From a virus: a stretch of 21,565 nt of DNA. Below the pieces are notes generated by a model. The model was not told the DNA's origin. It did no database searches and saw only the letters and a program-made list of their open reading frames with translations. Of the stretch, positions 3,201-21,531 are shown in pieces. A program made the translations under genes and the position numbers. The stretch spans positions 1 through 21,565 of the IMG/VR virus record IMGVR_UViG_3300021137_000117; one strand, written 5' to 3'. Numbering within the stretch: the stretch's first letter is position 1; every line of letters starts with the position of its first letter.

Positions 3201-3722
3201 AGCACTTGCCGTGTCAGAATTGACTTTAGAATACCATTCAGTTGCTTGCTTTGAGGAGTGTGTACCGATTTCACCCAAAGCATAATTGCTGGTGCGGCGC
3301 GAGCCGGTTTCAAATGTATAACGTGCAGCATCAGTTGGCATATTTGCACCAAGTGATTGACGTAGAGCTTCTAATTGCTGCTCGACCTGCGGGCGCGCAC
3401 GCAATGCTGCTTCACCGTTCAAACCGAGGTAGCCAGTATCCGGCATGTCAGTGCCGTCTGGTCCTTTAATCATTTTGTTTGGATCACCATGCAAAATGTG
3501 ATTGGTTTGCTCTGTATATTTGTTTACCGCATCATCTGCCGATATTTCATTGTGAAGTGAGGCATATTTATTAAGCCCTTCCCCAAGTTTCCCCAAACCT
3601 TCTGCAATTTGACCACCAAAAGCATTTGGATTGGCCGCAGGAACACTAATCGGACCGGCTGAAGATGGGCCAATTGGTTCGACTGTAGGCGTGGCATAAG
3701 GATCAGAAAGGAAATTTGCCAT
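231..3722 (-). CDS. Large virion protein with SGNH hydrolase and lytic transglycosylase (SLT) domains
   Basis: 1163 residues, far longer than a stand-alone lysin. Residues 1-285 are polar and probably helical. Residues about 294-437 look like an SGNH/GDSL hydrolase: GDS at 299-301 with nucleophile S301, block III G347 and N350 in GVSND, and the acid/base pair D420 and H423 in DGVHP. Residues about 483-655 look like a Slt70-type transglycosylase: E512 in YIESRF as catalytic acid, GVMQFMPGT at 530-538, and ELYLAHQQG at 580-588. A Pro-rich linker and a long charged helical region of about 400 residues follow. Position after the gp13/gp14-like genes matches that of T7 gp15/gp16, so this is probably an internal virion protein ejected at infection to cut peptidoglycan. 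It has no signal peptide and is unlikely to be the endolysin. The esterase substrate is unknown; O-acetyl groups of peptidoglycan or of a surface polysaccharide are candidates. Confidence 0.85.
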   Translation of the reverse strand: MANFLSDPYATPTVEPIGPSSAGPISVPAANPNAFGGQIAEGLGKLGEGLNKYASLHNEISADDAVNKYTEQTNHILHGDPNKMIKGPDGTDMPDTGYLGLNGEAALRARPQVEQQLEALRQSLGANMPTDAARYTFETGSRRTSNYALGEIGTHSSKQATEWYSKVNSDTASAATQQIMAHPFDDAVLESAHHDIVNAHVKQALHDTGAVEGSPQYDAAIRDGEKYFLKVKIKAYGPTRPDKSFQLVKDNAQFLGLDYETLYDDYKRKADDYEGRNLAEGVSPPLPANSNPKNSFVIGDSIGEGIRTASGAPGDTTVGLTPNRILTKIQSMKAADFGTGAIIVSTGVSNDPKSIGIVADQIKAFTDMGIAPSRIHIAGVGTGPNDSFKNLNVNGQLSDIAKKAGVSFMGPLDPENLSSDGVHPKDYKKISDTIFPPNTPDNLHGSAASLTRTRGMVDASDIPPASSVGANALPTLAIPDAVRSTWGWKQAVEMEKQGGFSEQDLATTAYIESRFGANTGAGQPGHAAQGVMQFMPGTAKKYVHGSPLDPNESYIGAQRLAIDNRQDLNRRLGRDVTGAELYLAHQQGSVGAAALLGHPEMSAVDALTRYAYKGNRALAMQAVRGNIGKNDDSNISAQDFANKWIVTFNNAKAAIGGGRSMTMPASVSGAPDRPSTAAMGFAFRDFPITGTNTFAPQTNITTPSLGFSQSDMGSPPTLLTDYNKPDVVAPVSTAEEPAKPKVMPVSEDAIASEIKNGANVPPRPVEVTKQMIADSEAQAYQRIEESGASEEVKTIARAQVAKKATARNIQYETNMRKSADASRIAENDFTTQALTFDRKHDTANLNALVDKIINNDDLNASSKLSLYNLVNKLAGNDEDTYGAGVDDMMKRLTLPADRPDRIKSVGQLETLFANKEINKAGFQLGFSLLKDKQEGYTSSRAVVLNSLFERAKDELVLTQDYAGGKINTDIKGNIAKENAIRDIDTAMTKWVADGNDPTQFPLAIDPKKQDAFFKIYREPAEKEKAKYDALMEREKQESTLAIDTPMYRILAETNVPKPPAGVNPIEWNTMMRNLPKITEKSGTQRYVGADEWATVVTALLRDPKPENISAFNAKFATTQGISHAEDYIKKLGPPEDITRPLPDWSVMSPKNGAPPPNSTWRIY

Positions 3723-3743
3723 TTTTAATAAGACCTATGACTG

Positions 3744-4352
3744 TTAAACTTGGCCACCGCCGGCGAACCCAAAATTAGCTTGTTGAGTTCCAAACAGATA
3801 GGAGCCAAGATTAGGTGTATTGACTTGCCCGGGTGCAAATAAATTACCAATACTGGATGCGCCGCTTGCTAAAGAGGAACCCATACTGCCAAAATTACCA
3901 ATACCGCCAGCCAAACTTCCAGCAGCGCCAAGAATACCACCGAAAATATCGAAAGATGCTTGTGATTCAAGAGCACTGGCCTGATCCAAATAACTTTTTT
4001 GCTGCGTGATATATCCATAGGCTTGTTTTTCGGCATTTGATTGAGTTGTTTGAACATTTGTATTTGCATTTTGAGTTGCACCAGCCTCAACATCCTTTAC
4101 AGACCCAGTATTGACATCAATACCTTTCGCCGCAGTACCAGCTTTATATTGTGCAATTTCTTCGCGACTTTTCAGACCTACATTGGTTGCTTGAATATCA
4201 CCAGCTTGACTTGTCCATTGTGCATTTTGCTGCGCGACAATCGCATTATTTCGGGCAATTTGAGCTTGATAATCCGCAGCATTGGACGAAGCAATACCGC
4301 CCATAATTGAGCTGCCTGCGGAAATCAATGTGCCAAGCATAGCAAAGCCCAT
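3744..4352 (-). CDS. Internal virion protein, T7 gp14-like
   Basis: 202 residues. It starts with a hydrophobic Gly/Ser/Ala segment (residues 1-27), followed by a helical region with QIARNNAIVAQQNA near residue 30. A GIDVNTGSVKDV stretch around residue 76 is typical of the T7 gp14 / internal virion protein B-like family of podophages. The C-terminal third is Gly/Ser-rich with a second hydrophobic segment (IFGGILGAAGSLAGGIG). In T7, gp14 sits in the internal core and is ejected into the outer membrane to start the ejection channel. Here the gene lies between a gp13-like gene (one base upstream) and the large hydrolase gene (21 bases downstream), the order expected for ejection proteins. The family call rests on the motif pattern and synteny. 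Confidence 0.75.
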   Translation of the reverse strand: MGFAMLGTLISAGSSIMGGIASSNAADYQAQIARNNAIVAQQNAQWTSQAGDIQATNVGLKSREEIAQYKAGTAAKGIDVNTGSVKDVEAGATQNANTNVQTTQSNAEKQAYGYITQQKSYLDQASALESQASFDIFGGILGAAGSLAGGIGNFGSMGSSLASGASSIGNLFAPGQVNTPNLGSYLFGTQQANFGFAGGGQV

Positions 4353-4353
4353 G

Positions 4354-4830
4354 TTATAATCCTATGTGATAGCGCCGAAAAGGTGCATTATTTATACCAA
4401 AAGGTTCTGGCTCGTCGAGTTTAAAGCCGCAAGCAATTAAAAAACTGCAAGCGCCACCATACGACGCATCAACATAACCAATTAACTGTGGACGCCATTC
4501 TAGCATCTTTTGAACTTGCTGTCGCCCAACTTTAATGAAAGCAATCGGCATTCTAGCAACCGCAGGCGTAGTCAATAACCAAGGATAACCTGTATGGCCG
4601 ATATAACTACTGCACAACCCAAACATAAGGGCTAGATCACCATCTACAAAAACTGCATCAGCATATAAACTATTGCGAAGGCTTTTCCAAATTGCTCGTT
4701 TTGGTGTTAATCCGCATACTTCAATTTCACGCCGATCGCCATCTCTTAAATTATTGGCCAGTATTACAGCGTGTTCACCTGTTGCTGGTACAATATGTAT
4801 TCTTGGATCAAGCATGAAGTTCTCGTTCAT
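4354..4830 (-). CDS. Internal virion protein, T7 gp13-like (GNAT-like fold)
   Basis: 158 residues from ATG at 4830. An in-frame TTG at 4836 and an ATG at 4815 are alternatives, none with a strong ribosome-binding site. The pattern PATGEHAVILANNLRDGDRREI, then LALMFGL and WLLTTPAV, then a late YVDASYGGACSFLIACGF segment, resembles the GNAT-like phage family that includes T7 gp13 (DUF2833). T7 gp13 is needed for virion assembly. Acetyltransferase activity is not established for the family, and I do not claim it here. The start overlaps the end of the preceding small gene by about 23 bases, and the stop is one base before the gp14-like gene, which suggests translational coupling. Confidence 0.7.
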   Translation of the reverse strand: MNENFMLDPRIHIVPATGEHAVILANNLRDGDRREIEVCGLTPKRAIWKSLRNSLYADAVFVDGDLALMFGLCSSYIGHTGYPWLLTTPAVARMPIAFIKVGRQQVQKMLEWRPQLIGYVDASYGGACSFLIACGFKLDEPEPFGINNAPFRRYHIGL

Positions 4831-5035
4831 CGACAATTGGGCTTAAACGGTGCAGCCACTGCCGACAAATATCATTGGCCGTGACCTCCGGCCATACTAC
4901 GATAAATCTTAATTCACCGTCAATTTCTCTTTCCACCGTCCAAGGTGAATAATGACAAGTTAATCGTGATTCACTCACACCGTTTTTTTCGGCTCGCACC
5001 ACAACAGCATTTTGACATTCTGCACAACCGGCCAT
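4808..5035 (-). CDS. Small Cys-containing phage protein, function unknown
   Basis: 75 residues from ATG at 5035, preceded by GTGGGG at a suitable distance and four bases after the stop of the nozzle gene. A longer frame opens at 5068 but lies inside the nozzle gene and lacks a better signal. The protein begins MAGCAECQNAV with a CxxC pair at residues 4 and 7, then has a CH pair near residue 27 and a Cys near 57. This could bind a metal, but the pattern is too sparse to call a zinc finger. It contains a short beta-like segment (LRFIVVWPEV). Small proteins often sit between gp12-like and gp13-like genes in podophages. I do not recognise this one. Confidence 0.65.
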   Translation of the reverse strand: MAGCAECQNAVVVRAEKNGVSESRLTCHYSPWTVEREIDGELRFIVVWPEVTANDICRQWLHRLSPIVDERELHA

Positions 5036-12264: not shown

Positions 12265-12299
12265 GGAAAGTGTCTCACCGTTAGGTGAGACGGCTTTCC
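12265..12299 (-). promoter_or_regulatory. Stem-loop containing the major capsid stop codon
   Basis: An 8-bp perfect stem (12272-12279 with 12284-12291) has a 4-base loop that holds the TAA of the capsid gene. A second stem (12265-12270 with 12294-12299, GGAAAG/CTTTCC) extends it past a small internal loop. No U tract follows, so it is more likely a processing or mRNA-stability element than a terminator. Confidence 0.5.
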
Positions 12300-13318
12300 G
12301 TATTAAGGAGCGAGTCAACGATCCGGATTGGAACGCCACGGAAATCGACGATAGGCATACCTTCGTATTCGCGTGGGGTGAGCAGCACGTTTTTATCACG
12401 AATTGCCTGAATGTCCATGTACTGACGAACAGTACGATTGACATACCAAGCTGGACGCATGGCCGGTGCTGGCTGGTTAGGAGCATCAACTTTGGTGATG
12501 CCGGAGATACGACGACCAGCGGTCGGAAGGCGTACAACAGCCTTTGACATCAGGGCGAAAATATCAGGTGGGGTTGTGCCAGCAAGGCCAGCGGTCGTGG
12601 TATCGAGGTTGGCGATACGAACGAAATACTGCCAGTTCTTGATGTGCAGACCGCATTTCCACATGAATAGCGAGGTGTAAGCCTCAAATTCACGCTGGTT
12701 GGCGTCGAAGCCCGGACGAATGTCGCCCTTATCTTCAAACACCAGACCTGCTTTGGAACCTTTGGGATAGAAGCCGAAACCGGTCTGTTCGCCCCAGCAA
12801 GCCAGCCAAATCGAAGCGTTAGAAGAGCCAGTACCACCACCGTCGAGAACGTTTACGGCGTTCTGTGCGTTTGCAGTCGAAACGGTGTTGAAACGAGGAG
12901 CAAGGCCAGTGAACTGAGCCTGTGTCACAAGTTCGTTGCCGTAGAAGAAGGTTGTGGACATCTGCTGAGACAAACCTTCGAGATGGGCATTATCTTCCGT
13001 CAGGCGCAGAGCTGCAACGTTGCCTTCGAGTTCGGCCAGCGAGCGGTCGATACGGGAATAGGCTACGAGTTCGCCAATCGAGTCAGTAACCTGTGCGGTC
13101 GTCGATTTGGTGAATGCAACACCCTGATAGAAGTTGCGCCATGTACCCTGTGGCAAGCCGGTACGAATTGTACCAGTGTGACCGAGGGTCTGGTTGCCTT
13201 CGCGCCAAAGCATGTCGTCGAAGATTTCATTGCACTGGGCGAGCATCTCTGCGATGTCGTCGATGCTACCATCACGACCAACGCGGCGACCCCAGTCTGC
13301 CAAAGTTAGATAGGACAT
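12281..13318 (-). CDS. Major capsid protein, BPP-1 Bbp17-like
   Basis: 345 residues from ATG at 13318, with GGAG seven bases upstream. The N-terminus (LTLADWGRRVGRDGSIDDIA), the block WREGNQTLGHTGTIRTGLP followed by TWRNFYQGV, and STTAQVTDSIGELVAYSRID match a major capsid family known from podophages including BPP-1, with an HK97-related fold. EMLAQCNEIFDDMLW and a MSTTFFYGNE stretch are also typical. About 345 residues is the usual length. The gene follows the scaffold gene after an 83-base spacer, the longest gap inside the operon, and precedes the cement gene. Its stop codon lies in the loop of a hairpin. Confidence 0.88.
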   Translation of the reverse strand: MSYLTLADWGRRVGRDGSIDDIAEMLAQCNEIFDDMLWREGNQTLGHTGTIRTGLPQGTWRNFYQGVAFTKSTTAQVTDSIGELVAYSRIDRSLAELEGNVAALRLTEDNAHLEGLSQQMSTTFFYGNELVTQAQFTGLAPRFNTVSTANAQNAVNVLDGGGTGSSNASIWLACWGEQTGFGFYPKGSKAGLVFEDKGDIRPGFDANQREFEAYTSLFMWKCGLHIKNWQYFVRIANLDTTTAGLAGTTPPDIFALMSKAVVRLPTAGRRISGITKVDAPNQPAPAMRPAWYVNRTVRQYMDIQAIRDKNVLLTPREYEGMPIVDFRGVPIRIVDSLLNTESRLT

Positions 13319-15178: not shown

Positions 15179-17047
15179 TTACTGTCCTCCGCCACTCGGC
15201 CCAGCGCCGCCGATACCTGCACCTGCACCGCCTAGCATAGCTTGCAGAGCATTCATACCCCCGCCGACATCTGTTGCCGACAAATCTTTTGCTGCGCCAG
15301 TCAAAGCAGGGCCGATTTGCGTGGCCATGTGGCCCATTTGCTGCTGTTGAGCCGCTTGTGCGGCTTGCTGTGCTTTTGCATCACGCATTTTCAAAACCTC
15401 CTCCATCGGGCGGAAGATTTTTTTAGATACGCCAAGCTGCTCGCCGTATTCTTTCATCACTTCGTCATCGTCAATCAAATCGAGCACGCCCGGATTGACC
15501 GGCGCGAGTTTGCCTTGCAACGCCAGCAAGCGTTCAATGCCGGCTGTTGCGACTGCACGCTGCGCGAGAGCCAACATCGAAATATATTCGATCTGAATCT
15601 GCATTCCCTGCATTGAAGGTGGCATGGGCGGCAAAAGTTTTTTGCGCGCTAGGATCGAATAGACGCGCTTGATTGCAGGGCCAGCACCTTCATTTTGAAA
15701 ACGCTCAATAACGGGGCCGAGCACTTGCAGCTTTTCATTTTGACGCTGTGCAACTTCATAAGCGGTCATATCTTTGGTTGAACTGGCCAGCATTAAAAAC
15801 AGATCGTTGAAAAATCCGGTTTTAATGCGACCTTGAATTTGCATCAAATCATTTGTAATGCCGGGCAGCGCCTCGGCGCGAACTTCAAATACGGGCTTCA
15901 TTCCGTTACCCGGATTGGACGAATAAGTGATATGACCGGGCAAAATAGATGAAGGTTGGTTTTTCAACTCGATTGGCGCATTAAGCGGTGGCCGCACAAC
16001 TTTTTCAAGCAACTCGGCTTTACGTTTTGTTTCTTGCTGAAGCTGCATGATGTCGCCAAGAGCGTCCATTGCAGGTGAACGGCCATACGGATCGTTTGCA
16101 GAAATCCACCAGCGCGGCGCTATGAATGGCGCGTCTTTGAAACCACGTTTAGATAGCGGGAAGTCTGTCGAGGAACCCCAGATCCAGTAGACTTCTCGAT
16201 ATTTGAAATCTCCCTCGATCTTCCCAAACGCTTTTCCGTTGGGAGAGTCGATTTCGAAGTTTGGTTCGATGGCATGCGCGACGATCCTTTCTGTTTCAAG
16301 ATAAGATCCTTTATTTTGCCAGAGGGAGCGAACATCTTCAGGGCAGTTATCAAGACCGAACATTTCAACGATTTGCAAAATGTTCATCGTGAATTGGCGA
16401 TACAATGTTTCTGGACGGAAGGTGGAGCCGACGCCAATAAAATACTCGCCCACTACCGGATTGTAGCAGCGGATAATATCATCCTCATCTTCATAGATGA
16501 TCATCGGCGCTGTGCCGTAGATGGTCAAATCTTCAAACATCTGCGCGCCGGAGTCATAAAAGTTTGAATGTGCCATGACCGTGTATATCATCAACTCAAC
16601 GGCTTCAAACCAAAGTTGGCCGTCACGATCAAGTTCAACACTTCCGACAGGCTTCAATTTGAACCAAGGGCGGGATGGAGACATCAAACCGGCCATCATA
16701 CCGGCCGCACAAACGCGCGACGCATAAGTTGCTGTTGGATCAAGAATATTTTGATTGATCGGCAAACCGCGAGTCATAGAGTTTGCCACCGGCAGATCAA
16801 CACCGCCATTCGTCAACCATAAAGACCGACGAGGATTTATATACTGCGCGCACAAAGCCCAGTGCTGGATCCATGAAAAACGCCAGCTACGCATCATACT
16901 CAAACGAGTTTCGATGTGACCACGAAGAGAAGCCCAGTTCAGCTTTTCTTCAGGCGTCATATAAGCCATGGGTTCGCTGGTCGCAGCTTCTTCTATGAGA
17001 AGTCCCGGACCAGCCATTTCATAATGCGCGACTTCTTGTTCAGCCAT
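15179..17047 (-). CDS. Portal protein (T7-like head-to-tail connector)
   Basis: 622 residues. The N-terminal part (LSMMRSWRFSWIQHWALCAQ, YINPRRSL, then NQNILDPTATYASRVCAAGM followed by MAGLMSPSRPWFKL) is diagnostic of the T7-type head-tail connector family. GDIMQLQQETKRKAELLEK, PPLNAP and MTAYEVAQRQNEKLQVLGPV mark the wing/stem and crown parts. The C-terminal 80 residues are Gln/Ala-rich, then Gly-rich, a common low-complexity end. The portal forms the dodecameric DNA channel at one vertex, binds terminase during packaging and later the gp11-like adaptor. It lies five bases after a Pro-rich small gene and three bases before the next gene. Confidence 0.92.
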   Translation of the reverse strand: MAEQEVAHYEMAGPGLLIEEAATSEPMAYMTPEEKLNWASLRGHIETRLSMMRSWRFSWIQHWALCAQYINPRRSLWLTNGGVDLPVANSMTRGLPINQNILDPTATYASRVCAAGMMAGLMSPSRPWFKLKPVGSVELDRDGQLWFEAVELMIYTVMAHSNFYDSGAQMFEDLTIYGTAPMIIYEDEDDIIRCYNPVVGEYFIGVGSTFRPETLYRQFTMNILQIVEMFGLDNCPEDVRSLWQNKGSYLETERIVAHAIEPNFEIDSPNGKAFGKIEGDFKYREVYWIWGSSTDFPLSKRGFKDAPFIAPRWWISANDPYGRSPAMDALGDIMQLQQETKRKAELLEKVVRPPLNAPIELKNQPSSILPGHITYSSNPGNGMKPVFEVRAEALPGITNDLMQIQGRIKTGFFNDLFLMLASSTKDMTAYEVAQRQNEKLQVLGPVIERFQNEGAGPAIKRVYSILARKKLLPPMPPSMQGMQIQIEYISMLALAQRAVATAGIERLLALQGKLAPVNPGVLDLIDDDEVMKEYGEQLGVSKKIFRPMEEVLKMRDAKAQQAAQAAQQQQMGHMATQIGPALTGAAKDLSATDVGGGMNALQAMLGGAGAGIGGAGPSGGGQ

Positions 17048-17762: not shown

Positions 17763-18325
17763 CGGGAACCACCACCCTTAAATCCGAGATGCCGGTAATT
17801 CTCGCGCACCACATTCCCAACGCCATCACCGGTGTGATGACCTGCACCTTTGGTATTTGCGACACCCGCCGGTCGCGTATAAGAACCGGCCAACATCTTA
17901 GGCAAAGGTTTATATTCGCGCGAAGCGGTTTCGATCTGACGCACTCCCAAACCCATCAAAGCAGCCAATTCGTTTGAAGCGATACCGCCATCCGCATCGG
18001 CAGGAACTTCAAAATCATCGTCAACAACATCATCGTCGTAATAAGTTTCTTCAGGCTCAGGTTCGGGTGCAGGCGCAGCTTGCAATATGCGAGTAGGCGC
18101 GCCCTGAATTTGCGGTGGCAGCGCTGGCCGAGGCCGTGGCCGATCAATCGGTACTTCGGCGGCTTGCATTGATGCCGCAGAAATATTATTGCGGCGCTGA
18201 CGCACCAACATACGCATAAACGATGACGCATCAAGCCCAAGCATATCGGCTTCAGTCTCAATCCATGCTGCGTCCTCACCGGACAAACGCACCATCATGC
18301 GTGTGCTATTCGAATCTTTGCTCAT
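17759..18325 (-). CDS. Ribbon-helix-helix protein with a long disordered tail
   Basis: 188 residues from ATG at 18325, overlapping the terminase stop (ATGA) with GGGAG upstream. Residues about 8-45 resemble an Arc/MetJ-type ribbon-helix-helix: a short strand RMMVRLSG, then helix EDAAWIETEADMLGL, a turn, and helix DASSFMRMLVRQRR. Such domains bind DNA as dimers through the strand. Residues 57-115 are Pro-rich then strongly acidic (DDDVVDDDFEV). The C-terminus has a conserved-looking NYRHLGFKGGGSR end. Placement between terminase and portal suggests a packaging or late-regulation role, but this is inference. Confidence 0.65.
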   Translation of the reverse strand: MSKDSNSTRMMVRLSGEDAAWIETEADMLGLDASSFMRMLVRQRRNNISAASMQAAEVPIDRPRPRPALPPQIQGAPTRILQAAPAPEPEPEETYYDDDVVDDDFEVPADADGGIASNELAALMGLGVRQIETASREYKPLPKMLAGSYTRPAGVANTKGAGHHTGDGVGNVVRENYRHLGFKGGGSR

Positions 18326-19161
18326 TGTAATGTACTCCCTTTATCAATCATCCAACCCTCCGCCATCGGCGTATAATCAATCTGGTGCTTAGAATGCGTA
18401 ACCAATTTACCCCATTCTTCGCGCGGGCTTTGAGACGCAGCGGTAATGCCGCTTCGCACCAGATAGCGCGTCGCATCCATCGCGTGATCATTCTCTTTAA
18501 CGACTTTGCCGTTTCGGTCGCGCCGATAAATGCGGAACTCGGCCAGCCAATTTCGCATCGAGCGAAACACTTTTAATCGGCCAGTTGATAACCGCTGCCA
18601 AACATCAAAGATGCCGGCCTCAACCGCATTGTCAGCGGGAGTCAAATGCAAACCCAAATTCGTATATGACACCAGCAATTGTTGGCCATCGTGTTGCGCG
18701 CGACCGCGAGATGCCGGATCAATCACGCCGGGTATCCATCGGCCTCGTGCCATAATCGACTGAACGTGAATTGCCGGATCGGCTTGACCCCGATAATGCT
18801 CGGCGTACAAATAGACCGTATCATTGTCAACATCGACCGCGCCCCAGATCGCTGCCGTCCGGTTCCAACCTACGTCTAATCCGTAGACTTTGGTAAAATG
18901 CAGTGGAATATCGAAAGGATCCACAAGGATGTCATCTTCGGATATAGGATAGATAGATCCAGAACCCAGTTCTGGTATTCCTCGTGTACGGCTTTCACGC
19001 TGGTGGGGAGGAATTGCAGCATACAGATCATCCTTCTGCTTTTTGGTCAGATGTGGTGCTTCATCCCATGATACCTGAACGCAAAACCTTGACATCTTAT
19101 GATCCATCCCCGGTTTCATTGGCCGGTGCCATGTGCGGTAAGAACCGCAGCGCAACTTCAC
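18322..19161 (-). CDS. terL: Terminase large subunit, C-terminal nuclease part (second frame)
   Basis: The nuclease half of the large terminase. After the overlap region the sequence reads SRFCVQVSWDEAPHLTKKQK, AIPPHQRESRTRGIPELGSG and SIYPIS, all typical of the link between ATPase and nuclease domains. Acidic metal-binding candidates are D96 in GLDVGWN, D148 in VIDPASRG, and D225 or D229 in NDHAMDATRYL (numbering from the GTG at 19161). That GTG directly follows an in-frame TGA and encodes no known terminase sequence, so it is probably not a real start. The ATPase half is in the preceding frame; the combined product would be about 507 residues, normal for TerL. Either a +1 shift joins them, an assembly error separates them, or the gene is broken. 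Confidence 0.85.
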   Translation of the reverse strand: MKLRCGSYRTWHRPMKPGMDHKMSRFCVQVSWDEAPHLTKKQKDDLYAAIPPHQRESRTRGIPELGSGSIYPISEDDILVDPFDIPLHFTKVYGLDVGWNRTAAIWGAVDVDNDTVYLYAEHYRGQADPAIHVQSIMARGRWIPGVIDPASRGRAQHDGQQLLVSYTNLGLHLTPADNAVEAGIFDVWQRLSTGRLKVFRSMRNWLAEFRIYRRDRNGKVVKENDHAMDATRYLVRSGITAASQSPREEWGKLVTHSKHQIDYTPMAEGWMIDKGSTLQ

Positions 19162-19164
19162 TCA
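19097..19164 (-). other. +1 frame transition window in terL with GGGG slippery candidate
   Basis: The first frame stops at 19097 and the second is closed by TGA at 19164-19162, so a join must occur between these points. The minus-strand text ACC GGG GAT in the first frame becomes CCG GGG ATG in the second. The GGGG run (plus-strand CCCC at 19108-19111) allows a Gly tRNA to slip +1 from GGG to GGG, 3 codons before the TAA. The same spot is where a one-G length error would produce the split. Confidence 0.55.
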
Positions 19165-19846
19165 AACCCTTCAAAGGTGTGAAGGTGCACATCATAATAC
19201 CATTTGTTGTCATCAAACGCATCAGACATTCATCGTAAACATCGGCGGGCGGTTCTTCGTCCAGCCAGATCACATGCTTGGCCGTACCCTGAAATTTTGC
19301 GCGGCCAGATTCAGACGATTTCAAACCAATCGTGCTGACGCCACCAGACTTATGCCTCACCCGAAATGTATCGACCGCTTCTGCGATACCTTGTCGCCGT
19401 GTTGGTTCACCATCAAGGCAGCGATATGGTATCATACCTGTGCCAAAATCGCCAAATCGCCCTAACAGTGCAAACTGGATAATATCGCGGGTGGTTTCGT
19501 TCGTATCACCGGCTGCCCACATATCACATGGGGCTTCAAACCTTCGGCCTGTCCACCAATCGGGGTATTCACCGGTGGCGTGTAATGTGGTTTCAAAGCT
19601 GCCGCCGATTGTCTTGCCGGAACGGTTGCCGCCCATGAACGCACGTTCTTGATGCTCTGCACCAGCGGCGAAGAACTCAAGATGCTTCCGGTACAATTCT
19701 CGACGGAACGGCCCGCTATTCGGGAAGTATGTTGAGATTGCGTTGCGGCGCATCCTTAACGTCAACTCGGCCTGTAGCTTCTCCTGTAGAGCCAACAGCT
19801 GAGACGGATTTAATATTTGCAAGGATGTTGACAATTTCTTCGTCAC
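19097..19846 (-). CDS. terL: Terminase large subunit, N-terminal ATPase part (first frame)
   Basis: 249 codons of the packaging motor ATPase. Walker A is GGNRSGKT at residues 72-79; Walker B is HVIWLDEE at 191-198 with D196 and E197; the coupling motif is CTFTP at 220-224. The frame ends at TAA (19099-19097) just where the ATPase-nuclease linker should continue, and the nuclease half follows in the +1 frame. Translation probably starts at GTG 19846, since a stop precedes it, or at ATG 19753 (residue 32). The GTG start overlaps the end of the small terminase gene by 131 bases, the ATG by 38. In the cell the subunit would dock on the portal and pump DNA by ATP hydrolysis. Confidence 0.87.
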   Translation of the reverse strand: MTKKLSTSLQILNPSQLLALQEKLQAELTLRMRRNAISTYFPNSGPFRRELYRKHLEFFAAGAEHQERAFMGGNRSGKTIGGSFETTLHATGEYPDWWTGRRFEAPCDMWAAGDTNETTRDIIQFALLGRFGDFGTGMIPYRCLDGEPTRRQGIAEAVDTFRVRHKSGGVSTIGLKSSESGRAKFQGTAKHVIWLDEEPPADVYDECLMRLMTTNGIMMCTFTPLKGLSEVALRFLPHMAPANETGDGS

Positions 19847-20534
19847 TCATTTCAGTTAGTGGAGCCGGAGCGACTTGAATATCGCGCGGTAGCAGGGACG
19901 CAACAACTTTTAAATAATCCTGTGGCCGATCTCGGCGCACGATCTTCAAAACGGCCAGACCGTGTGTCTCCCAATCCGAATAGACATCCTCTAAAAACCG
20001 CGCCGACAAAACTTTCTTGTTTGTGCTTGCGCGGCGGTTCAAATCCGTCATGTTTGTAGAGCGCGCCGGCAATTGCACCAAGCCCTGAACAACTTCGGCC
20101 TCGCCGTCCTTCTTCGCCACTTTTCGACGCGGCGGGATTAAAACAGCATCAACCGTTTCACCGGCAACACCAGCCTCGCGCTCATGCTCTTCGGCCAGAT
20201 CACGCAAGAACTGCTCTTTCCGTTGCGCCTTCGCACCTGCAATATCCGCTGCTTTGGCCATGCGATTTTCAACTATCCAATCTTTAATTAAATGAGCGCC
20301 TTTACGAGATGAGCGTTCTTGCCATTTTCGAGTGCGCGTACTTTCGATACGCGCAAGCTCCTCTTCGGTCATCCGGTTCAGATTAAATCGGTATATCTTA
20401 TTACGAGCACCTTCAATCGCTGAATCAAAATACCCTTGATCTACCAATTTTTTTAAAACATCCCGACGGCGTTTAAGCAGGGAACTTACCGCGCCTAAAG
20501 AAAGCCAACCTTCGGGAAATTTCAAATCAGACAT
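19716..20534 (-). CDS. terS: Terminase small subunit (putative)
   Basis: 272 residues from ATG at 20534, overlapping the preceding stop (TAATG). The N-terminal 55 residues look like a helix-turn-helix (LSLGAVSSLLKRRRDVLKKL, VDQGYFDS), fitting recognition of the packaging site. A long charged helical region follows (IESTRTRKWQERSSRKGAHL). The late block FLEDVYSDWETHGLAVLKIV and DRPQDYLKVVASLLPRDI is typical of small terminases of alphaproteobacterial phages and prophages. It lies directly before the ATPase gene, its partner. The last 44 codons are overlapped by the large-subunit frame. The assignment rests on the late block and synteny. Confidence 0.75.
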   Translation of the reverse strand: MSDLKFPEGWLSLGAVSSLLKRRRDVLKKLVDQGYFDSAIEGARNKIYRFNLNRMTEEELARIESTRTRKWQERSSRKGAHLIKDWIVENRMAKAADIAGAKAQRKEQFLRDLAEEHEREAGVAGETVDAVLIPPRRKVAKKDGEAEVVQGLVQLPARSTNMTDLNRRASTNKKVLSARFLEDVYSDWETHGLAVLKIVRRDRPQDYLKVVASLLPRDIQVAPAPLTEMSDEEIVNILANIKSVSAVGSTGEATGRVDVKDAPQRNLNILPE

Positions 20535-20779
20535 TACACCACAGGTACAGCTTCAACAGGCACAATAACTTCAGGAACAACCGGAGTTGCAGTGCTGGCC
20601 GAAACAACAAGAGCGTGTTCGGCCACAAAAGCGTCCAGCTTACCCAATCCGGCGATAACTTCGGCTACGTTGCCGTCCAGAACTGCCGAACTGCGGCTGG
20701 CGACTCCAGCAGCTAGGTGGGAAGCGGCAGACTGGACGGCGGTGCGAATATTTTCAAGAGCAATCAGAACATCAGACAT
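20534..20779 (-). CDS. Hypothetical small Ala/Val-rich protein
   Basis: 81 residues from ATG at 20779, with GAGAGG five bases upstream. The first 60 residues look helical and Ala-rich (ALENIRTAVQSAASHLAAG, EVIAGLGKLDAFVAEHA); the last 20 are Val/Pro-rich and extended (PEVIVPVEAVPVV). No family is recognised. It is coupled to the small terminase gene by a one-base stop/start overlap, so a packaging-related role is possible. The 36 bases between it and the gcrA-like stop hold no clear terminator. Confidence 0.6.
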   Translation of the reverse strand: MSDVLIALENIRTAVQSAASHLAAGVASRSSAVLDGNVAEVIAGLGKLDAFVAEHALVVSASTATPVVPEVIVPVEAVPVV

Positions 20780-20815: not shown

Positions 20816-21373
20816 TCATTCCGGACGATGCTGCAATGGTGCAACGCCGGACACTTTCGGCGGGATGATGTATCCAAGTTGCATGTGAGCCGTACAATAT
20901 GGTTTTCTGATGCGTAAATCCGCCGTTGCAGCTCCGCAATACAACTCCACCGCATCAAGCGAACCGCCCAAAGGCCACCGACACGTTCGACTACCTATTT
21001 CACTCAGCGGAATACCGATTATCCCTTCAACATCAAATCTATTCAGCTCTGGAACGACCGCAACTTTAATATTTGGCTCTATTTTCGTCTTTTGACGCCG
21101 AAATTGCGAAGGTTTTTGCACAATTTTTGCATTTTTCCGATTTATTTTTGGTATCTCCACCGAAATACTCGGATCGTCGGCCAGTTTGGCCAAAATTACA
21201 TGCAACTCTTCTGGGTTATACCGATCTAAACGACCGGCCACAGACGATCTGGTTCGGCCTAGGGCATGTGCAATTTCAGAATAGTGTGCATTGCGACTTT
21301 TCATTTTGAAAAGGGTCGCTTCATCGTCCTCTGACCAAGGTCGAGGTCGTGGGAAATCTCGAATAACTGCCAT
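20816..21373 (-). CDS. gcrA-like: GcrA-family transcriptional regulator
   Basis: 185 residues from ATG at 21373 (no strong ribosome-binding site). Residues about 11-52 (RPWSEDDEATLFKMKSRNAH, YSEIAHALGRTRSSVAGRL) are the Myb-like helix-turn-helix start seen in GcrA. A basic linker follows (KINRKNAKIVQKPSQFRRQK). The C-terminal part has SRTCRWPLGG, LYCGAA, and KPYCTAHMQLGYI, matching the CRWP...CG...PYC..H pattern of the GcrA domain that contacts sigma-70. Caulobacter GcrA is about 173 residues and activates promoters with CcrM-methylated GANTC. As first gene of the late operon it could steer host RNA polymerase to late phage or host promoters; that is inference. Confidence 0.85.
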   Translation of the reverse strand: MAVIRDFPRPRPWSEDDEATLFKMKSRNAHYSEIAHALGRTRSSVAGRLDRYNPEELHVILAKLADDPSISVEIPKINRKNAKIVQKPSQFRRQKTKIEPNIKVAVVPELNRFDVEGIIGIPLSEIGSRTCRWPLGGSLDAVELYCGAATADLRIRKPYCTAHMQLGYIIPPKVSGVAPLQHRPE

Positions 21374-21435
21374 TCACGATGCGTAGATGCGATAGTGCGG
21401 GTTGTCAAGAGGTTTGGGTGTGCGGAGCGGATAGG

Positions 21436-21464
21436 TCGGATAAGTCAAATAGACAAGATGTCAA
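21436..21464 (-). promoter_or_regulatory. Possible leftward promoter for the late operon
   Basis: On the minus strand, TTGACA (21464-21459) is a perfect -35 hexamer; 16 bases later TATCCG (21442-21437) is a weak -10. It would start transcription about 60 bases before the gcrA-like gene. The -35 lies inside the first dyad, so a dyad-binding protein would block it. The -10 is poor, hence the low confidence. Confidence 0.3.
21450..21464. promoter_or_regulatory. Operator-like dyad, copy 1
   Basis: TAGACAAGATGTCAA is a 15-base element with 6-base arms TAGACA and TGTCAA around a 3-base spacer; one arm base differs from perfect symmetry. It repeats copy 2 at 21517-21531, 67 bases away. The binding protein is unknown. 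Confidence 0.5.
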
Positions 21465-21491: not shown

Positions 21492-21519
21492 TTGAGGGGT
21501 GTCGGGGCTTCTCTATTAG
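21492..21519 (+). promoter_or_regulatory. Possible rightward promoter
   Basis: TTGAGG (21492-21497), a 16-base spacer and TATTAG (21514-21519) give 4 of 6 matches in each hexamer. The -10 overlaps dyad copy 2. It would serve genes beyond the right edge, which cannot be seen. Confidence 0.2.
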
Positions 21520-21531
21520 ACAACATGTCTA
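21517..21531. promoter_or_regulatory. Operator-like dyad, copy 2 (perfect)
   Basis: TAGACAACATGTCTA has perfect 6-base arms (TAGACA/TGTCTA) around ACA, a layout typical of a site for a dimeric repressor or activator. The ribbon-helix-helix protein at 17759-18325 and the GcrA-like protein are in-window candidates; a regulator outside the window is as likely. Confidence 0.55.

Follow-up and report, generated by a model that had tools for sequence, protein, structure and literature searches.

A highly divergent GcrA-family gene at the head of the structural gene run of a lake bacteriophage, with a possible role in late-gene transcription

Gene order and upstream region

The window analysed here, a 21,565-base viral contig from a lake bacteriophage, carries a minus-strand run of particle-building genes with a gcrA-like ORF at its head (Table 1). 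The order is the gcrA-like gene (ATG at 21373, stop at 20816), an 81-aa ORF, a 272-aa TerS-like ORF, the large terminase TerL in two pieces and the portal, followed by ORFs of the scaffold region, the GP7-type major capsid protein, and tail and internal virion proteins. After the short gap behind gcrA, the genes up to TerL overlap. Neither the 81-aa nor the TerS-like ORF matches a Pfam or PHROG family. The initial annotation had described the GcrA-like gene as the first gene before terminase; the order is right, with the refinement that these two ORFs intervene before TerL.

Table 1. Features of the gcrA-like gene, its upstream region and the structural run (window coordinates)
Feature	Position	Strand	Evidence or remark
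Operator-like dyad 1, TAGACATGTTGTCTA	21517..21531	-	perfect within TTAGACA-N3-TGTCTAA; 67 bases from dyad 2
Operator-like dyad 2, TTGACATCTTGTCTA	21450..21464	-	overlaps a TTGACA
Possible promoter, TTGACA-N17-TACGCA	21380..21408	-	by eye; weak -10; ends 6 bases before ATG
gcrA-like gene, 185 aa	20816..21373	-	Pfam GcrA 44.2 bits (cut-off 26.9); PDB GcrA 7ye1, E 7e-5
N-terminal Myb-like DNA-binding domain, residues 11-57	21203..21343	-	pLDDT ~95; 5yiv_A match
C-terminal sigma-interacting-type domain, residues 121-169	20867..21013	-	5yix_B match; residue comparison
81-aa ORF, between gcrA and TerS-like gene	20534..20779	-	36-base gap from gcrA
272-aa ORF, TerS by position only (before TerL)	19716..20534	-	
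TerL ATPase part, 249 aa	19097..19846	-	Terminase_6N 50.9 bits; phrog_31467 215.9 bits
TerL nuclease part, other frame, 257 aa from ATG	18322..19095	-	Terminase_6C 37.6 bits
Portal (head-to-tail connector)	15179..17047	-	PF12236 431.6 bits
Major capsid protein, GP7 type	12281..13318	-	PF20911 383.5 bits

The window reaches just 192 bases upstream of gcrA. The same gene is present at 100% identity in four other contigs, and contig L005, 99.9% identical to the window over 2.7 kb, extends 4.35 kb further upstream. There, real-looking genes on the opposite strand give way to GC-rich tandem repeats over about 0.6 kb and then to the gcrA promoter region. Because the upstream genes of L005 lie on the other strand, gcrA opens the structural run. 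The tandem arrays, composed of CCAGCCGA and CGACCG units, occupy 3438-4069 of L005 between the divergent operons and occur also in L002 and L003; their copy number varies among otherwise near-identical contigs.

Two operator-like dyads of 15 bases each precede gcrA in the window and, at the identical location, in L002, L003 and L005; within the window they are the sole GACAN3TGTC sites (0.33 expected). Their occurrence solely upstream of gcrA suggests that another regulator controls the gene. A consensus scan around the gcrA start found no good promoter and no terminator for gcrA. By eye, a second TTGACA is visible 35 bases upstream of the ATG and, after a 17-base spacer, a weak TACGCA; this combination would yield a leaderless gcrA mRNA. 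A CtrA-type site (TTAAN7TTAA) was considered and rejected, with no exact match and nine one-mismatch sites against 11.5 expected, none of them in the gcrA promoter.

The split of TerL (18322-19846, minus strand) is formed by a TAA that ends the ATPase part and an ATG of the nuclease part one base past this stop (TCATAAGATG). It is no sequencing error, since contig L013 keeps the split even though 10 of the 141 bases surrounding the junction differ. Podovirus MW202785.1 has its TerL split there too, and the roughly 130 bases inserted resemble an AP2-domain remnant; MW202478.1 encodes a single, longer TerL (623 aa), and TerL is an ordinary single gene in EBPR podovirus 1 and RHph_N3_2.

Family membership and divergence from cellular GcrA

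In alphaproteobacteria, GcrA assists RNA polymerase in initiating transcription of cell-cycle genes. The Pfam GcrA profile PF07750 matches residues 13-168 of the ORF (156 of 185; profile positions 3-145 of 155) with 44.2 bits and an E-value of 3.5e-11, above the curated cut-off of 26.9, and the ORF sequence retrieves Caulobacter crescentus GcrA from the PDB. The C-terminal pattern is complete (C131-R-W-P ... C146-G ... Y159-C160-x2-H163), with the cysteine spacing of C. crescentus GcrA. The initial annotation had assigned the protein to the GcrA family on a Myb-like N-terminus and a Cys/His C-terminal pattern, and both the profile search and the intact frame bear this out. The ORF is a real, very divergent GcrA-family protein, and the sequence-based case for membership stands on its own, independent of the fold model. 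In the PF07750 control searches, the archaeon Sulfolobus acidocaldarius also scored above the GcrA cut-off, probably through the Myb-like half alone.

A fold predicted from the single sequence was discarded (pLDDT 35) in favour of one from a 51-row homologue alignment, from which two rows of annotated phage records were left out. This gave pLDDT values of about 95 for the DNA-binding domain and about 78-92 for the C-terminal domain, in a model that is biased towards the GcrA fold because the alignment includes GcrA proteins. On the two Caulobacter GcrA crystal structures, the predicted Myb-like domain superposes on 5yiv_A with an rmsd of 0.8-0.9 A over 41-44 residues (34% identity), and the predicted C-terminal domain on 5yix_B with an rmsd of 1.6 A and a TM of 0.78 by target, which agrees with the earlier assignment of this domain. 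Foldseek E-values are poor (above 0.1) because both domains are short. The DNA-binding domain alone is unspecific, since in VIA-align many unrelated Myb/HTH chains rank level with that of GcrA.

Divergence is evident from the NCBIfam equivalog for cellular GcrA (NF050816), which scores the ORF at 27.1 bits where the cut-off is 280, and from a residue comparison with 17 host and 33 other viral GcrA sequences. The ORF keeps the invariant residues W13, R42, G47, R51, C131, W133, P134, G136, C146, G147, Y159, C160 and H163. Within the C-terminal signature it carries D137G, P138S and F143E, at positions where D, P and F are kept in all or nearly all other aligned sequences, an invariance of D and F that is partly imposed, as the DNA pattern that collected most of those sequences required D and F/Y. 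Further replacements affect residues invariant in host GcrA, namely N43 and A44 in the recognition helix (both to S) and K48 (to R). The equivalog score and these changes at otherwise invariant positions indicate, from sequence, that this GcrA-family member is no orthologue of the cell-cycle regulator. Compared with alphaproteobacterial GcrA (PF07750; 5yiv, 5yix, 7ye1, 7ye2), the two-domain plan, the domain folds, the Cys/His frame and most invariant residues are alike, whereas identity is only about 20-30%, the six residues N43, A44, K48, D137, P138 and F143 are replaced, the score is far below the equivalog cut-off, and the gene lies inside a phage structural run with no GANTC in its promoter.

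The loss of D137, P138, F143, N43 and A44 means that binding to host sigma or to DNA may be altered. One reading of these changes, combined as they are with a preserved Cys/His frame, is that the protein is a decoy whose altered sigma-binding face occupies sigma70 and shuts host GcrA-dependent promoters late in infection; phage proteins that target sigma are common (PMC7403470). We consider this quite unlikely, as the protein retains both the fold and the key residues of the DNA-binding domain, which a decoy would not need.

In a tree of 51 GcrA proteins, phage and host copies are intermingled. The end branch of the ORF measures 8.15, against a median of 1.25 for viral copies, and its nearest neighbour, L074, is joined with weak support (79/82). 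This branch is far too long for the ORF to be placed, so that a claim about its origin would lack a basis.

The same divergence bears on the published proposal for phage GcrA proteins. A phage GcrA homologue was described in 2012 for phiCbK-like phages and proposed to act on host replication (PMC3556154), and the GcrA of Atu_ph08, reported in 2019, was likewise proposed to do so (PMC6630229). For the present phage, such host reprogramming would mean that the protein takes over from host GcrA and activates host replication genes, making a non-replicating cell able to support the phage, as suggested for phiCbK gp222, a member of the same family from a phage that infects swarmer cells without GcrA (PMC3556154). 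This is unlikely here, though it merits consideration: the protein has drifted much further than the majority of viral copies, as its branch length shows, its equivalog score is far below the cut-off, the host-type recognition residues N43 and A44 are changed, and the gene is part of the structural run, not among early genes. The gp222 protein and its relatives (Dolichocephalovirinae) are likewise two-domain, phage-encoded GcrA homologues, but gp222 is 25% identical, is encoded next to a DNA polymerase fragment and short genes of early type, in genomes exceeding 200 kb, and has a proposed host-directed role. Small-genome phages with a GcrA annotation include Rhizobium phage RHph_X2_24, Caulobacter phage DMCA, the Synechococcus-assigned Yong-M4-211 and Atu_ph08, the comparison with the last resting on its paper (PMC6630229); in the three small-phage regions inspected, the neighbours of gcrA are early or replication genes, with helicase, methylase, RusA or primase close by. 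Phage-encoded GcrA is thus not a novelty, with precedents from 2012 and 2019. It is already known and common, and what is new here is where the gene sits, at the head of the operon, and how far it has drifted.

GANTC sites and methylation

Caulobacter GcrA works at methylated GANTC promoters. The initial annotation had noted the absence of GANTC from the 192 bases upstream of gcrA, which is true of the window and extends in L005 to 930 bases upstream and through the gene itself (GANTC-free from 3421 to 5017). Within the genes of the window, GANTC is rarer than expected from synonymous codon shuffling (37 seen, 55.9 +/- 4.0 expected), and depletion is seen in nearly all contigs examined. It fits a host with CcrM or with restriction enzymes and gives no support to methylation-dependent control of the gcrA promoter. 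By the same shuffling, GGNCC (26 against 50.8) and CCNGG (23 against 51.5) occur in window genes at about half the expected frequency; together with the avoidance of GANTC, these are signs of restriction avoidance. Intergenic GANTC sites number two against 1.2 expected, and no consistent intergenic enrichment was found across GcrA-bearing contigs. A search for N6/N4 methylases gave no match in the window, and in its relatives nothing exceeded the cut-off.

These observations weigh on the idea that the protein reads CcrM-methylated GANTC and thereby links late transcription to the methylation state of the host. Its appeal comes from the mode of action of Caulobacter GcrA and from the avoidance of GANTC in window genes, as expected of a phage with a CcrM host. 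It is nevertheless very improbable, given the GANTC-free promoter region and gene, the equally strong avoidance of GGNCC and CCNGG, and the intergenic count close to expectation. Accordingly, where the first reading raised a possible tie to host replication and CcrM methylation, its cell-cycle and methylation components are not supported: there is no GANTC near the gcrA promoter, GANTC is avoided no more than GGNCC and CCNGG, and no N6/N4 methylase matched in the window. The other half of that reading, a late-gene activator, remains plausible from the head position of the gene, from the survey described below and from a Brevundimonas prophage operon.

Proposed role in late-gene transcription

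The position of gcrA in other viruses was surveyed by searching for DNA that encodes CxWPxGDx5[FY]xxCG, a pattern too strict by design to catch sequences such as that of the window. The pattern was found in at least 120 viral stretches and in at least 117 stretches of bacterial genomes, where the listed titles were all alphaproteobacterial or unspecified Proteobacteria; all 50 viral records tested score above the Pfam GcrA cut-off. TerL was located by phrog_2 in 22 of these 50 records and by other models in a few more, and 21 contigs were used. The gcrA gene is on the TerL strand in 19 of the 21 and, within this strand, at most 12 kb upstream of TerL in 15, where randomly chosen genes give 4.5 +/- 1.8 (0 of 20000 draws). 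Four Mu-like contigs share DNA, as do two others, and keeping one of each left 17, with 11 of 17 at such a position (3.5 expected, p 0.0001; 5.8 expected and p 0.007 when compared with TerL-strand genes alone). At tighter limits the excess is not significant (6 kb, p 0.11; 8 kb, p 0.08). The position upstream of TerL is consistent with a late-gene activator and supports it without proving it, the test being unspecific because any early or middle gene would score likewise.

Since gcrA heads the run of particle-building genes, the arrangement points to a switch acting on late genes of the phage itself, not to a device of the cell cycle. With moderate confidence, we regard the protein as most likely a sigma70 cofactor through which host RNA polymerase transcribes the phage late operon. 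On host RNA polymerase, this diverged GcrA-family protein would raise transcription of the packaging and structural operon, its C-terminal domain docking on host sigma70 at domain 2 while the Myb-like domain touches promoter DNA near -10 to aid opening of the closed complex, as described for Caulobacter GcrA, whose domain roles have been reviewed (PMC7403470). As first gene of the unit, gcrA would provide positive feedback once the operon is switched on. An activator encoded within its own operon needs another start, a point against this scheme; the switch would probably be a separate regulator binding the two upstream dyads of TTAGACA-N3-TGTCTAA type. In this scheme we infer sigma70 binding, the promoter targets, activation, its timing and the role of the dyads. 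The closest experimental precedent for GcrA driving phage structural genes is a 26-gene prophage operon of Brevundimonas (terminase, portal, tail) that loses expression in a gcrA mutant (PMC7987155). Counting against a late-operon role, published phage GcrAs are mostly found among replication or accessory genes and do not head a late operon.

The proximity to terminase also permits a role as packaging helper, in which the HTH protein marks DNA for TerS/TerL. The tight linkage of gcrA to the terminase genes speaks for it, as does a relative of the phage, G005, in which a protein with the DNA-binding domain alone overlaps a TerL-like gene, but a complete sigma-interacting-type domain would have no use in packaging and gcrA genes elsewhere are not linked to terminase, which makes this role improbable.

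A broader form of the late-gene activator reading, held only tentatively, is that alphaproteobacterial phages have adopted GcrA for the dedicated task of activating late genes independently of methylation, with the phage copies no longer bound to the cell cycle or to GANTC, and that it serves as a sigma70 cofactor in the place held elsewhere by antiterminators or Mor-type activators. The reading bears on how late genes are switched on in alphaproteobacterial phages that lack their own polymerase. No match to a single-subunit (T7-type) RNA polymerase was found in the window or its relatives, an absence that is unproven, as the control genomes gave no match either. If the broader reading is true, viruses carry an abundant branch of a master cell-cycle regulator of bacteria, one that acts at phage promoters; the sigma-cofactor mechanism could then be studied in phage systems that are short and non-essential, and the published idea of phage GcrA resetting the host cell cycle would be recast.

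The late-gene reading is also favoured by two relatives collected by their portal protein and by the Mu-like group described below. In G004 (portal 64% identical), a canonical GcrA (119.8 bits) is encoded on the strand of the TerL-like gene, about 11 kb ahead of it, and RusA comes next after this GcrA. In G005 (portal 65%), a NusG-like gene and a Terminase_2 small subunit come before the protein with the GcrA DNA-binding domain alone, which precedes and overlaps the start of the TerL-like gene. PF03237 detected no TerL over the limit in these portal relatives, and their TerL is of another type, assigned by position, length and the look of the sequence only. MW202785, which has a related terminase, carries an RfaH-type gene about 3 kb before TerL. 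These NusG/RfaH-like genes upstream of terminase (4300-4875 of L010, from G005; 1173-1721 of L040, from MW202785.1) are possibly antiterminators for the late operon. In several members, the place before the terminase genes thus holds transcription regulators of different kinds.

Mor is a family of middle-gene activators. In Mu-like phages that bear GcrA, a Mor-like gene adjoins gcrA (12599-12994 in L324, 10563-10973 in L330 and 9008-9418 in L331), two of the three scoring just below the Pfam cut-off. Like gcrA in the window, the Mor and NusG/RfaH-like genes encode transcription factors upstream of terminase and structural genes, but the Mor and NusG-like proteins are unrelated to GcrA and make other contacts on RNA polymerase.
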